A stretch of DNA of 15,084 nt from Deltaproteobacteria bacterium (GTDB taxonomy: Bacteria; Desulfobacterota; Desulfobacteria; Desulfobacterales; Desulfobacteraceae), in the NCBI GenBank assembly GCA_019314105.1, contig JAFCZY010000118.1, forward strand, positions 1 through 15,084, read 5' to 3'. This document shows positions 9,694 to 15,084 of this stretch, piece by piece. The position numbers were made by a program, and so were the translations under genes. Position 1 is the first letter of the stretch; every line of letters starts with the position of its first letter. The notes under the pieces were generated by a model that saw only the letters and a program-made list of their open reading frames with translations, was not told the DNA's origin and ran no database searches.

Positions 9694-10850
9694 TTAAACA
9701 TGTCCCAATGCATCAACCGGCTCCATTCTTGAGGCTTTATAGGCGGGTTGTAGACTGGCAAAAACAGAGATAAACAGAACAATGCCGGATACCCATAAAA
9801 GTTCAGTTAAATTTACTGAGGGAGCCAATAGCAAATTGTCCTGGCGACCAAAGGCAAATCTAATTTTATAAATATTTAATACCCCTATACCCGATAATCC
9901 AATGATATTGCCGATGATGGTACTGATAAGCCCTAATAAAAGTCCTTCAGCCAGAAAAAGGCTCATGATTTTTCCGGGAGACGTTCCGATTGCCGACATG
10001 GTTCCAATTTCTCTAACACGCTCATAGACAGACATCATCATCACATTTAAAATACTGATGAGTACAATGGCAATCATAATAATTTTCATTGCAATGGTCA
10101 TAAAATCTATCATTTTGGCAATATTGGAAAACGGAGAAAGCTTATCCCAGGTATGGATTTCAAATTCAGGCATTCCTTTTTTATTAATAAATCCGACTAA
10201 TTTTGAAGAAACCGCTGCATATACCTTATCAAGTTTGTCAAAATCATGGAGTCGGATGGCCACCTCCCGGCAATGGTAAAGTTCAACCCATTCACACTGC
10301 CGTCTTTATTGTTTGCAACCAGCACGATAGGGTCGCCAATTTTGAGTTTCATCCCTTTGGCCAATTTTTCCGGGATAATCACCTCACCTGGAGTTAACAA
10401 TTCCCCGGGCTCTCTTTTTTTATCAAATGTCATCCGGGTTCCCACATCCGGACAGACCAGTACTTCTTTTTCAGGACTTATGGCATTCAACCGGATATTG
10501 GTCGTATCGGTAAAATTGCTTAACATGGCATTAAGTTTAATTCTGGGGGCCCAGGCCAGTATTTCTGTATGACTTGAAAGCAATTCTTCAATTTTCTTGT
10601 ATCGCTTTATATCCAACGTCAGGTTTAACGGCATGGTATCAATTGAAGAAACATATCCTTTTTTATGAATCTGCATTTGTGCCAGATTTGAATCGGTGAT
10701 TTGCCCTATCATCATGGTTTTAAAAGAACCGGCGAGGCCGGAAAACAAAATCACCAGCACAATACCAAATGTAATTAAAAGAGAGGTTAACAGGGTCCTC
10801 CGCTTATATCTTAAGAGATTCCGAAGTGCAATTTTAAATATTCGAATCAT
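9694..10850 (-). pseudogene. FtsX/LolE-type ABC permease, disrupted by frameshift
   Basis: The gene lies in two overlapping frames. The first (10850-10197) has the cytoplasmic start and first membrane helix (about 20-45: TSLLITFGIVLVILFSGLAGSF) and most of a periplasmic MacB-PCD domain up to NFTIAG, then goes out of register and stops. The second frame picks up near 10263 (no ATG; VAIRLHDFDKLDKV) and contains three membrane helices with the FtsX signature YERVREIGTMSAIG and the family ending ASRMEPVDAL. Compared with the relatives I remember, roughly 25-35 residues of the periplasmic domain seem absent at the joint. The shift is equivalent to a loss of 3n+1 bases, so a short deletion is more likely than a simple sequencing slip. 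If real, the transporter is dead. The ribosome site AAAGGAG precedes the ATG at 10850, 18 bases after the ATPase gene. Confidence 0.8.
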
Positions 10851-10868: not shown

Positions 10869-11540
10869 CTATGCCAGTTTTCCGTCAACAAGTGTATGTA
10901 TGATTTCTGCCTCTTCCATAATTCGCGGATCATGGGTGGAAAAGATAAACGTAGTACCAAACTTATCTTTCATATCCCGCATCAGTCGAATGACATTTAT
11001 GGAAGATGCCTTATCAAGGTTTGCCGTAGGTTCATCTGCCATCACCAGCTTGGGTTGAGTAACCAACGCCCTTGCAACGGCAATTCTTTGTTTCTGCCCC
11101 CCTGATAATTGATCTGGAAATTTATCTTTCTGGTTCAGCATGTCTACAGAATCGAGAACATTAAGAATCATTTCTTTCCTTTTATTTTCGGGTTCATTCT
11201 TGATCATGACCAGCGGATATTCGATATTCTCAAAAGCGGTCAATACCGGAAATAGATTAAAGGACTGAAAAATAAAACCGATCACATCGCCCCGGAATAC
11301 AGCCCTCTCTTGTCGGTTAAAATTACCCACCTGTCTGTCGTCAACAAGAATCTTTCCCTGGGTCGGCATATCAAGACACCCTATCAAATTTAACATGGTC
11401 GTCTTTCCGCTTCCTGAAGGGCCTACAAAGGAAACAAATGATGATTTTTCTATGGACAGGTTAATATCGCTTAAGGCAGCAACCTCAACTTCACCTGTCT
11501 GATATATTTTTGAAACATTTTCGATTTGAACCAGAGCCAT
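10869..11540 (-). CDS. ABC transporter ATP-binding protein, LolD/MacB type
   Basis: This 223-residue protein is an intact ABC ATPase: Walker A GPSGSGKTT (40-48), Q-loop Q92, signature LSGGQ (145-149), Walker B VMADE (166-170), D-loop NLD and switch H203. Length and sequence (SKIYQTGEVEVAAL, GCLDMPTQG, STHDPRIMEEA) fit the LolD/FtsE/MacB group, which power FtsX-type permeases that act mechanically on lipoproteins, lipids or cell-wall enzymes instead of moving solutes through a channel. It is the first gene of a leftward operon with the permease, a LolA-like carrier and a barrel. The core Lol system usually has its own locus, so this is probably a paralogous system for a specific lipid or lipoprotein. 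All ATPase motifs are kept although the partner permease is broken. Confidence 0.9.
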   Translation of the reverse strand: MALVQIENVSKIYQTGEVEVAALSDINLSIEKSSFVSFVGPSGSGKTTMLNLIGCLDMPTQGKILVDDRQVGNFNRQERAVFRGDVIGFIFQSFNLFPVLTAFENIEYPLVMIKNEPENKRKEMILNVLDSVDMLNQKDKFPDQLSGGQKQRIAVARALVTQPKLVMADEPTANLDKASSINVIRLMRDMKDKFGTTFIFSTHDPRIMEEAEIIHTLVDGKLA

Positions 11541-11553
11541 AACTGCCCCCTTT

Positions 11554-11596
11554 AAAAGGAATGATTAAAATAGAAATTCCTTTTTTAAGATGTCAA
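11554..11596 (-). promoter_or_regulatory. Probable promoter of the Lol-like operon with an overlapping inverted repeat
   Basis: On the minus strand TTGACA (11596-11591, 6/6) is followed after 18 bases by TATTTT (11572-11567, 4/6). Transcription would start near 11560, about 20 nt before the ATG. A 9-bp inverted repeat (AAAAGGAAT at 11554-11562 / ATTCCTTTT at 11576-11584) spans the -10 box and start site and could be an operator. Confidence 0.45.
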
Positions 11597-11643
11597 TTTT
11601 TAAAGAATAATTTGGAGTTAATGCTTTGAACTGTATCAGAAAA

Positions 11644-11684
11644 AAGCCTGATATACCAGGTAAAATTACGAGTATATCAGGCTT
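11644..11684 (-). terminator. Terminator of the respiratory cytochrome operon
   Basis: A perfect 13-bp stem (AAGCCTGATATAC at 11644-11656 with GTATATCAGGCTT at 11672-11684) encloses a 15-nt loop. On the minus strand the stem is followed by TTTTC, a good T-run. It lies 26 bases after the stop codon of the cytochrome gene. Confidence 0.85.
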
Positions 11685-11692
11685 AAGATGGA

Positions 11693-11717
11693 ACGAATAA
11701 ACAAATTGTTTATTCGT
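11693..11717. repeat. 25-bp near-perfect palindrome over the cytochrome stop codon
   Basis: ACGAATAAACAA (11693-11704) is the exact inverse of TTGTTTATTCGT (11706-11717), around a single central base. It includes the TAA stop (11712-11710) and lies just before the terminator. In RNA it could form a second 3' hairpin protecting the message; in DNA it could be a protein site. Confidence 0.7.
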
Positions 11718-13731
11718 GTTTTTCATACCCCATGGGCATTTTTGTGAATCGACCCCCATGAATAATGGGATCACCTTTATATCCCAGTTTTTTAAAATTA
11801 ATATAATCGGTTTTATTGATCAAATGCTCCACATCCCTTCCCTGTGACTTCATATAGGAAAAGTCTGTTCCTTTATGAGCAATGTTCTTAAAATCAATGT
11901 TACGATTGTCCTGATGACAGCGATTACAGGTTTTATCCCCTTTAAGACTGTCATGACACTGAACACAGGATAAGGCCATTTCTTTCGGCATTACCTCGTG
12001 ATCCAGACGCCAGTACATCCAGGTTTCTTTCCACTTGTATGACCCGCTGTAGTCAAGACCAACTGCTTTCATCCCATCCTGGAACGCTTTTTCCCAGTCA
12101 AAATGTTTCCAGTAGGCTGTACTGTCTTCCTTGTTCCTGGGAAAAAGATGGGGGACAAGAATATAATCATTATCCGCATCAATGGCCTGGACAGCCTTCA
12201 TTATTTTAAAAGGAACAATTTTGGAAGCTGGATCCTTGATGGAACCTACAGGCTCGGTGATATTGATAACATCTGAATTTATATCCACCTTATCGCCTAT
12301 TAATACACGCTTCATATAACCTGAATCCCATGCGTAGGAAGGGACCACAGATTCGCCCCATTTAAATTCACCCTTTTTCTTGTTATAATCAGGCTTGCCG
12401 TATTTGTCTTTTTTGGACTTGCGGTTTTTGTCACCGGCCTTGGACCAGTCCCACCAGGTCTTGGTGGGTTTGCATTTTGCAAAAACCGGTGAATGGCAGA
12501 CATTACAGTCAAGTGTTTCCGCATGCTTATTTAAATGATGATCCAAAACGCTCCCGCAATAATGGGGTTCGTCTGAATGACAATCCTGACAGGTTACCTT
12601 ACCCTCGGCTACCGGTACGGATGAGCTTCTGCCCGAGATCTTGTGGTTTCTTGTTTGATGGCATTCGGTACAGGTAAAATCATACCCCCCCATGTGAACG
12701 TCACAGTTTCTGCTGGGTTCCAGGAGCTGCCTTGACAGATCCGCATGTTTGATGGCATCTCCACCGCCACCATTAAAGTGACAGGCACCGCAGCTGGCGC
12801 GGCTTGAATGCCCCACATTTTCGGCAACCAATTTCAAATCAACATCTTTTGCAGGCATGCCGGCTGCCGGCCCTGCTTTTTTATATTTGCCGGTGGTATC
12901 ATGGCACACCAAACAATCCATTTTTGTCTTATCGGTAAAATCAAAACTATTGTCTTTCCAACCATATCCTGCATGACAACTTGTGCAACGAGCCTCGTTG
13001 CTGATGGGACTAATTCAGTAGTTGTTCAGGGCCGTGCTCCCCTTGCCGTGCATGATGTCCTTTCTATGCCCGGTTGTATAGGGAGAAGGGCCCTTCCACA
13101 GCCAGTGGGCGGTGGTCAGCATATCTTCTGCCTGGGTATCATGACACCTCAGACATTCGGCCGTCACCTGGAATGCATCCGGGTTGTCCGGCAATTTTAC
13201 CAGTTCTTTGTGATCCGGAACATTCTGCAAATGACACCCTTTGCAGTCCACAGGCCCCTTGGCTTGTTCCTGGTGGCATTCAATACACTGTTGATGATAG
13301 GCAGCTTTAAGGCCGATCCGTTCCGGATGATCCGGATTAAAAGAGTCCTGATGACAGGCCGAGCACCGAGTTGTTTCCGATGCGGCTTTATCTTTTGGCC
13401 GGTAATGATGGCACTTACTACAGTCATTGGTTAAATTTGCATGGCGTTTATGGGAAAATCTGACAGGCCCGTAATGGTCTTCCCGGTCTTTGATAATGGG
13501 GCTGTCCATTAAAAAGTACACGTCTTGAACATCTTTTAAGGAAATACCGGCATCCATCAGAGATATCTTCCGGGCAATCTTATGGTCATCCTTGTATTCC
13601 TTAATAAAGGAGACGACCTCCTTAGCCCTTTCCTTTGCTTTCTCCTGATCAGGCGCTTTCCAGACATCTGCCATACACAGGGCAGTCGTCAGGGTCGCAA
13701 GGCCAACGAAGAAAATAATTTTCTTTATCAC
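11710..13731 (-). CDS. 13-CxxCH multiheme cytochrome c, octaheme tetrathionate reductase-like, probable selenoprotein (in-frame TGA at 13015-13017)
   Basis: Read through one in-frame TGA, this is a 673-residue periplasmic protein. It starts at GTG (13731), overlapping the stop of the membrane subunit (TAGTG), with a strong AAGGAGGTG ribosome site, and has a signal peptide (1 to about 21). Residues 104-167 hold four CxxCH heme sites in a class III cytochrome-like domain. From about 180 the sequence follows the OTR family: CLRCH at 193, HWLWKGP, NNY-U239, RCTSCHAGYGW (heme site 249), DCLVCHDTTG (273), then CxxCH at 314, 354, 381, 409, 589 and 602, plus the family stretch CDVHMGGYDFTCTECH. U239 replaces a Cys that, from memory, is conserved in OTR (NNFC) and lies near the active-site heme. 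A SECIS-like hairpin follows the TGA. The reaction may be reduction of a sulfur or nitrogen compound; the substrate is not deducible. A nonsense mutation is the alternative, but every other codon in the frame is intact. Confidence 0.85.
12985..13001 (-). promoter_or_regulatory. SECIS-like hairpin after the TGA of the cytochrome gene
   Basis: The minus-strand mRNA reads GCAACGA-GGC-UCGUUGC, a perfect 7-bp stem with loop GGC. It begins 13 nt after the UGA, and the loop lies 20 nt after it, inside the range for bacterial SECIS elements. The loop starts with GG, as SelB recognition favours. The stem lies wholly within codons for conserved residues (SNEARC), so its perfection is not forced by the protein sequence alone. 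Confidence 0.72.
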
Positions 13732-14930
13732 TACGACACCTCCTTGGGTGCCTGTAAAACAGGCAGATAGGTCACAACAAATCTATAGATAAACATCAAT
13801 GTTGCGATAAGCCCTAAAGTGACCAGAATTTCTCCGAATGCAGGGAAATATCCATTTTCACTCAATGGCGGTTTATATCCTACGATGAACACATTGATCC
13901 GGTTCAATACCACACCAAAGACAATCAAAGATGCGGCAATAAAAACACCTCTTCTCGAGTTTCTGACCCTGTCAAAAAGTAGCATTGTCCAGGGAATCAT
14001 CACGCCAAAAAGTATCTCCACAATGAAGGAATTGGTTTGATGGGTTCCGTCCAGAAGGTAAACATAGGTTCCCCTGTAAACCATATCCCCAAGTTTGAGG
14101 AACATATAAGTTCCCAAAATAAAAATGGTAATCCGTGTCAGGGGAGCCAGAATGTTCATTTCAGACTCCAGCTTAAATGAAGATGTAGCAAGGGTTGTTT
14201 CAAAAACCACCATGGGATACCCAACGGAAAAGGCCGAGGTAAGAAACAAAAGGGGTAAAATCGGTGTGTACCACAACGGATGCAGCTTGGTAGGCGCAAC
14301 CAGCATGAGTGATCCAAGACTGGACTGATGCATGCAGGATAGAACGATCCCTAAAATAATAAACACCCACATGACTTTACCGATGACGGCATCCCCCACT
14401 TTCAATATCGTGTCCACCAGCCCGTTGAGTGAGGAAAGGATACCCGGAAGGTTGACCCGGCCCTTGAACTGTTCTGCAACAATGGGGAAAAATTCAAAAT
14501 ACAGCACATGGAGATAAACCATCACACACATGGCCACTTCAAAAAGGACTGAATTGGTGTTCCAGTTAAATATGGGTTTCCAGATGGCCCAGGAACGTCC
14601 AATATCCACCAAAAGCCCCAGAACCACAAAGGTGTAACCCAAAACAGCCGTTAAAAGTGCCGGCCGGGTAATGGGTTCATAATAATGTTTCCCTGCAATA
14701 TGGGCCAGAGCAGCCGTGGTGAAACCGCCGGCAGCAAGGGCAACACCGGTTGCCACATCCACTCCAACCCAGAGCCCCCAGGGCCTGGCATTGGTCAAGT
14801 TGGTGACATAGCCGATACCACCGGTAAATCTTGCAAGAATGGAGATAGCGCCTGCAATCATAAAAACCAGCATCACCAGCACACCGGGTGTCCAGAATTT
14901 TCTATTTAAAGGAGTTGCTTTATGATCCAT
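13731..14930 (-). CDS. HybB/NrfD-type integral membrane quinone-interacting subunit
   Basis: This 399-residue protein has about ten hydrophobic helices and short loops, close to the length of HybB. Family marks include ARPWGLWVGVDVATGVALAAGGF (about 48-70), the helix with GRSWAIWKP (111-119), and SCMHQSSLGSLMLVAPTKLHPLWYTP (about 203-228), which is typical of HybB-like proteins of the NrfD/PsrC superfamily. These subunits exchange electrons and protons between the menaquinone pool and periplasmic redox partners without bound heme. Its ATG overlaps the stop of the HybA-like gene (TGATG) with GGAGG upstream, and its own stop overlaps the GTG of the cytochrome gene. The three are therefore tightly coupled and likely form one membrane complex linking quinone to the multiheme cytochrome. 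Confidence 0.92.
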   Translation of the reverse strand: MDHKATPLNRKFWTPGVLVMLVFMIAGAISILARFTGGIGYVTNLTNARPWGLWVGVDVATGVALAAGGFTTAALAHIAGKHYYEPITRPALLTAVLGYTFVVLGLLVDIGRSWAIWKPIFNWNTNSVLFEVAMCVMVYLHVLYFEFFPIVAEQFKGRVNLPGILSSLNGLVDTILKVGDAVIGKVMWVFIILGIVLSCMHQSSLGSLMLVAPTKLHPLWYTPILPLLFLTSAFSVGYPMVVFETTLATSSFKLESEMNILAPLTRITIFILGTYMFLKLGDMVYRGTYVYLLDGTHQTNSFIVEILFGVMIPWTMLLFDRVRNSRRGVFIAASLIVFGVVLNRINVFIVGYKPPLSENGYFPAFGEILVTLGLIATLMFIYRFVVTYLPVLQAPKEVS

Positions 14931-15084
14931 CAGGCGCCTCCTTTATTTTGTGGTTTTTCCTGAACTTTATTTGATTTGTACATAACCGCTCCTAAAACCC
15001 CAAAGAGTGCTATGGGTGACCATAGATAACTGAACAGCGAATGCTGTATGGTTTCGGAAAGTTTGGGTGAAGGTTTTTCCGATA
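14930..15084 (-). CDS. HybA-like membrane-anchored iron-sulfur subunit, C-terminal end (partial)
   Basis: Only the last 50 or so residues are in the window. They contain one membrane helix (SLFSYLWSPIALFGVLGAVM) followed by a charged, Gly-ending cytoplasmic or stromal tail and TGA at 14932-14930. A C-terminal membrane anchor directly upstream of a HybB-type gene is the pattern of HybA-like ferredoxin subunits with four [4Fe-4S] clusters and a Tat signal, but no cluster ligands are visible here, so the identification rests on context and the anchor. The stop overlaps the next start by one base. Confidence 0.65.
   Translation of the reverse strand, partial: SEKPSPKLSETIQHSLFSYLWSPIALFGVLGAVMYKSNKVQEKPQNKGGA

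Follow-up and report, generated by a model that had tools for sequence, protein, structure and literature searches.

Among the closest described relatives of the protein considered here is the octaheme tetrathionate reductase (OTR) of Shewanella oneidensis (1SP3), which carries a cysteine, not a selenocysteine (Sec), at the position of interest, and whose solved chain lacks a class III cytochrome c (c3-like) domain. The title of one cited study reportedly gives nitrite and hydroxylamine for OTR. The S. oneidensis enzyme has also been reported, in an excerpted source, to reduce tetrathionate (PMC10986466). Here we describe an OTR-family multiheme cytochrome gene with an in-frame TGA, very likely read as Sec, on a 15,084-nt stretch of a Deltaproteobacteria bacterium (the window; assembly GCA_019314105.1); among named bacteria, those most closely related to it are sulfate reducers. 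The original prediction made from this DNA held that Sec in such a cytochrome would be a new use of selenium, a claim that does not stand. ExtKL of Geobacter is an earlier predicted Sec-containing five-heme cytochrome according to the excerpted report (PMC5877670; NF040886); like our query it is a multiheme c-type cytochrome with a predicted Sec, but it belongs to a different family, NF040886 being absent from the query's NCBIfam matches at E 0.001. The OTR family itself (TIGR04315, WP_331457571.1) stands in Table 1 of a review of May 2026 (PMC13188914), in its available part, as a GenBank-annotated selenoprotein; each row there records a protein's name, domain, Sec count and accession, and by that listing the entry is of the query's family and has one Sec. 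Sec in the OTR family or in multiheme cytochromes is thus not a first, and the family is already listed as a selenoprotein.

The cytochrome gene (11710..13731, minus strand) starts with GTG and ends with TAA, and its 673 codons are open except for one TGA at codon 239 (13015..13017, minus strand), the predicted Sec codon, which bears out the lone TGA that had been claimed. The N-terminus is hydrophobic and, judged by eye, resembles a signal peptide. On the OTR model TIGR04315 the protein scores 496.8 bits against a curated cut-off of 375 over residues 186-595, so that family sequence runs without a gap across the TGA, as predicted, and the codon lies within an open, family-conserved frame of the kind expected of a SelB-dependent selenoprotein. 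By this match and by alignment, residues 173-595 (11947..13215, minus strand) form an OTR core homologous to 1SP3 and sharing its fold, while a domain match and alignment place a c3-like tetraheme domain at about residues 85-168 (13228..13479, minus strand). The assignment to the OTR family therefore held but the eight hemes did not: there are 13 CXXCH motifs, as likewise in five full-length database relatives that were checked, with the c3-like domain fused to the OTR core. Residue 239, its position counted by hand in the alignment, pairs with Cys64 of Shewanella OTR, in agreement with the correspondence first proposed; we take Cys64 to lie beside the Lys-ligated heme, and the passages of the literature searched contained no text on its chemistry. 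Lys328 (12748..12750, minus strand), nearly invariant among homologues, aligns with Lys153 of 1SP3, presumably the heme ligand in OTR, and the lysine expected of the family is thereby present.

At the DNA level we compared 110 genes, namely 78 loci from named genomes, 30 order-wide loci, the query gene and its own-genome paralogue L100; genome and gene counts throughout take no account of relatedness. The codon at the site was TGA in 46 and Cys in 64, with no TAA, TAG or other codon. The named-genome loci number 80, of which 78 span the site (36 TGA, 25 TGC and 17 TGT), while the 30 best-scoring order-wide loci, a set excluding the query stretch itself (L101) and the paralogue, gave 9 TGA and 21 Cys. 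The 45 TGA loci besides the query include those of Desulfocicer vacuolatum DSM 3385 (L037) and Desulfamplus magnetovallimortis (L043), and the nearest named loci of the query cytochrome come from metagenome-assembled genomes labelled Desulfobacteraceae bacterium and Desulfobacula. The nine order-wide TGA genes encode short OTRs that share 41-44% identity with the query and have a single CXXCH upstream of the TGA and seven downstream of it; by their sequences they are true octaheme forms with a predicted Sec and without the c3-like part, and Sec forms are thus found with 8 and with 13 heme motifs.

Were the UGA a real stop, the locus would yield two products, a cytochrome of 238 residues containing five CXXCH motifs and a 403-residue protein with its own start (ATG at 12921), or else would be a pseudogene. 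Three of the 120 top-ranked database hits, out of 3503 in all (P0065, P0091 and P0121), are indeed 403-residue fragments beginning downstream of the TGA, the very breakage by annotation that had been foreseen. The site is nevertheless TGA or Cys in all 110 genes and never TAA or TAG, and the stretch from the TGA to the next ATG (residues 240-270) is conserved and contains the heme motif CTSCH; a product begun at Met271 would presumably have no signal peptide. In comparisons of the query with nine loci chosen from the 36 TGA loci, dN was 0.05-0.21 on the 5' side of the TGA and 0.06-0.13 on its 3' side, with dS at least 0.5 where computable, and because dN is alike and low relative to dS on either side, both halves are under similar purifying selection. 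The restriction to TGA and Cys codons, together with dN far below dS downstream of the TGA, led us to reject a pseudogene or split gene, and termination at this codon is extremely improbable.

The 7-bp hairpin with loop GGC claimed downstream of the TGA is present (GCAACGA-GGC-TCGTTGC, 12985..13001, minus strand), its stem beginning 13 nt and its loop lying 20 nt past the TGA, and by its conservation and its fit to a published model it is a predicted bacterial selenocysteine insertion sequence (SECIS). That model, bSECIS, as given in the available part of PMC13188914, has a loop of 3-9 nt that lies 16-37 nt past the UGA and carries a G at its first or second position, and a free energy of at most -7.5 kcal/mol; the 17-nt stem-loop of the query agrees with it, at -7.5 kcal/mol right at the energy limit. 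All 46 TGA genes carry a SECIS-like hairpin at a fitting distance. The full seven-pair stem is found in 36 of the 37 TGA genes made up of the named-genome loci and the query, and since all seven pairs form in 45 of the 46 overall, the hairpin stands above chance. The nine order-wide TGA genes share the identical 17 nt; L055 has one G-U pair in the stem and reaches only -5.4, and L094 has an unrelated 7-bp hairpin (loop AGTT) that shares no sequence with the usual one, fits the model and possibly represents an independent origin of SECIS. None of the 42 Cys genes among the named-genome loci reaches -7.5 kcal/mol downstream of the site. Of 395 genomes sampled across the phylum, four, one of them the source genome, have the exact hairpin motif after a TGA, and all four places are OTR genes.

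Among 205 near-invariant residues of the TGA group that have a synonymous choice, exactly five use a single codon (Ser244, Asn245, Glu246, Arg248 and Cys249), and all five lie inside the hairpin that the original prediction had pointed out, for which random placement gives 3e-10; L094 was omitted from this count by design because of its different hairpin, and L058 is without those codons. These frozen codons rule out the hairpin as a chance structure. They also bear on the idea that a near-cognate tRNA inserts Trp or Cys at the UGA, which would give a selenium-free protein. SelB-independent read-through of UGA is known in general, and to that extent such decoding is conceivable here, but the alternation of TGA with Cys codons, the freezing of hairpin codons at synonymous sites and the Sec machinery of the source genome all argue against it, and we consider it very improbable. 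Residue 247, the remaining one of the hairpin, forms the loop; the 46 TGA genes encode Ala (41), Ser (four) or Cys (one) there and never Pro, while of the 64 Cys genes 46 encode Pro (Fisher p 2e-16, with relatedness ignored). GCT and TCT at this codon yield the loops GGC and GUC, while a Pro codon places C at the loop position following the first G, for which the model favours G or U; because a Pro codon would thus disfavour the loop in the bSECIS model, the hairpin seems to select residue 247, and an RNA element appears to dictate a residue of the protein.

The source genome encodes all parts of the Sec machinery whose presence was to be checked, with tRNA-Sec (selC; 76.5 bits), selA, selB and selD all over their cut-offs, which rules out missing machinery. 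The selD gene (L017, C186) has one in-frame TGA of its own and for that reason may itself encode a selenoprotein. SelB was over the cut-off in 31 of 36 TGA genomes versus 12 of 42 Cys genomes, and four of the five TGA genomes without it have a tRNA-Sec over the cut-off. In 14 genomes selected from those of the 30 order-wide loci (nine TGA, five Cys), selB was always found, including in the genomes of L131, L122 and L128, three Cys genes that are considered below.

Several observations weigh against the Sec reading. The hairpin, at -9 kcal/mol, has a z of -0.27 versus shuffled sequences and is thus unremarkable in stability alone, and an Rfam scan of the hairpin region gave no SECIS family, its single match (14.4 bits) being a chance one. 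One of the 64 Cys genes (L131, G340; TGT at the site) keeps the identical 17-nt hairpin intact, the sole one of the 22 order-wide and paralogue Cys genes to reach -7.5 kcal/mol; it is most simply a relic of a change from Sec to Cys, and L122 and L128 carry near-copies of the hairpin that look decayed. All five order-wide Cys genomes checked also have selB, and because of this and of the hairpin kept by L131, the presence of the machinery is not strictly coupled to that of the TGA. Conversely, TGA genome G026 (L046) has neither selB nor tRNA-Sec over the cut-off, and at the TGA locus L054 the match contains an additional stop at another place. The AlphaFold model, which contains no hemes, has low confidence (pLDDT < 50) over residues 314-380, a region that holds several of them in the protein. 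Finally, the expectation of Cys or TGA at the site, which held for every gene at the DNA level, fails for 12 of the 117 database proteins that span it among the best 120 of 3503: 105 have Cys, nine Leu, and one each Ala, Thr and Met. The twelve family members with neither Cys nor Sec are P0102, P0105, P0108, P0109, P0111, P0112 and P0114-P0119, and on their account neither residue can be indispensable in the OTR family.

Nearly all relatives nonetheless have TGA or Cys at the site, and every TGA gene examined has a matching hairpin; for these two reasons the best reading of the in-frame TGA is very likely Sec, and we regard SelB-driven insertion at codon 239, as predicted from these genes, as close to certain. 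A tree of 128 rows requires no fewer than 14 Sec/Cys changes, at least eight of them forced by well-supported branches, which suggests that the two residues have been swapped repeatedly in the OTR family. The tree left out the short L054 and L058 and included 20 database proteins, hand-picked from the 120; three sequences, P0109 (Thr), P0114 (Leu) and P0014, entered the total of 14 as Cys, the tree row of P0014, which is Cys in the site alignment, beginning about 130 residues early, trimmed at an earlier motif. The source genome also retains a Cys member of the family, L100 (C311), of 547 aa with eight CXXCH motifs, TGT at the site and 35% identity to the query; by eye, it shows a hydrophobic stretch near its C-terminus.

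The cytochrome gene is preceded by genes that suggest its electron supply. The stop codon of a gene for an NrfD/HybB/HmcC-like integral membrane subunit (13731..14930, minus strand) overlaps the GTG start of the cytochrome, and an NrfD-like gene adjoins the cytochrome in 31 of 36 TGA loci, while none was found by tblastn (E 1e-8) in the available flanks of the Shewanella loci L073-L078, L081 and L082. Next to it, the end of the window truncates the gene for a HybA/HmcB-like 4Fe-4S protein to its C-terminal 50 residues (14930..15082, minus strand); a full-length relative at 3891-4802 of L024 exceeds the HybA cut-off. Hmc, Nhc and MccACD likewise combine an NrfD-like subunit, an Fe-S protein and a multiheme cytochrome, and none of the NrfD complexes described in the excerpted text of PMC8076601 has an OTR-type cytochrome. 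A divergent sigma-54 activator gene lies ahead of the operon in 17 of 36 TGA loci, at a distance of some 3.2-4.2 kb from the TGA (L024 2025-3404, for instance), and is perhaps the regulator of the cytochrome operon. At the 3' side of the cytochrome gene, a terminator-like hairpin with a T run (11647..11660, minus strand) was identified by consensus match only, such sites numbering seven in 11500-15084 versus 3.9 expected. Farther downstream, at 9694-10850, an ABC-transporter permease of the FtsX/MacB type occupies two overlapping frames, with 97 bp absent there relative to L025.

In the mechanism we propose, SelB, whose gene is present with the rest of the machinery, would bind the hairpin 20 nt past the UGA and deliver Sec-tRNA, and the chain would presumably be exported unfolded and receive hemes at its 13 CXXCH motifs. 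Electrons from quinol would pass through the Fe-S protein and the NrfD-like membrane subunit, reach the c3-like domain and from there enter the OTR core. One 673-residue Sec239 cytochrome with a SelB hairpin, this operon electron route and a selenium chemistry that is itself conjectural is, as judged from the genes, with high probability the best explanation overall. Sec could also be inserted without being catalytic, guarding the site from irreversible oxidation or tuning the nearby heme, with the Sec and Cys forms doing the same job but differing in how well they withstand oxygen or sulfide. The interchange of the two forms, the homologues that have neither residue, and the distant Cys paralogue kept in the source genome, which would be expected if the forms were nearly equivalent, are all in keeping with such a role; nothing speaks directly against it, but the alignment with Cys64, presumably a neighbour of the Lys-ligated heme, speaks for catalysis, and we consider a non-catalytic Sec possible but doubtful. 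If Sec is catalytic, its selenolate beside the Lys-ligated heme might act as a nucleophile on a sulfur-sulfur or similar bond in the substrate, and electrons from heme might then resolve the Se-S intermediate, as with the cysteine of TsdA. In that enzyme, mutation of the active-site Cys abolishes activity and substrates modify this Cys, according to the excerpted report (PMC6879331). On this analogy, Sec as the nucleophile on a sulfur-sulfur bond and heme as the source of electrons is a conjecture that we rate just short of evens. A quinol-linked 13-heme selenoenzyme in which all of this holds, i.e., a selenolate nucleophile splitting S-S or related bonds, Sec and Cys swapped often and the hairpin dictating residue 247, is put forward only tentatively.

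As published analysis of Sec in OTR, a partial search found only the table row in PMC13188914, in its available part. The excerpted text on D. autotrophicum HRM2 counts no fewer than 31 Sec proteins and points to a Table S3 (PMC2702500), where an earlier listing is possible, and the table of a 2022 review, as excerpted, lists a Sec "cytochrome c family protein" (PMC9312934). New here are the exchange of Sec and Cys, the hairpin that apparently dictates residue 247, the probable relic hairpin in a Cys gene, and the evidence set out for them.

OTR-family matches occur in 270 of the 389 genomes of the order, 221 of them over the cut-off, and because the family is this common and nine of the 30 best-scoring loci have TGA, a share of the seemingly broken cytochrome genes in databases are probably whole selenoproteins. 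The repeated natural swaps of Sec and Cys at a site presumably beside a heme offer a good test of what a heme enzyme gains from selenium, and the apparent grip of the hairpin on residue 247 would be a plain example of a protein sequence shaped by an RNA signal.
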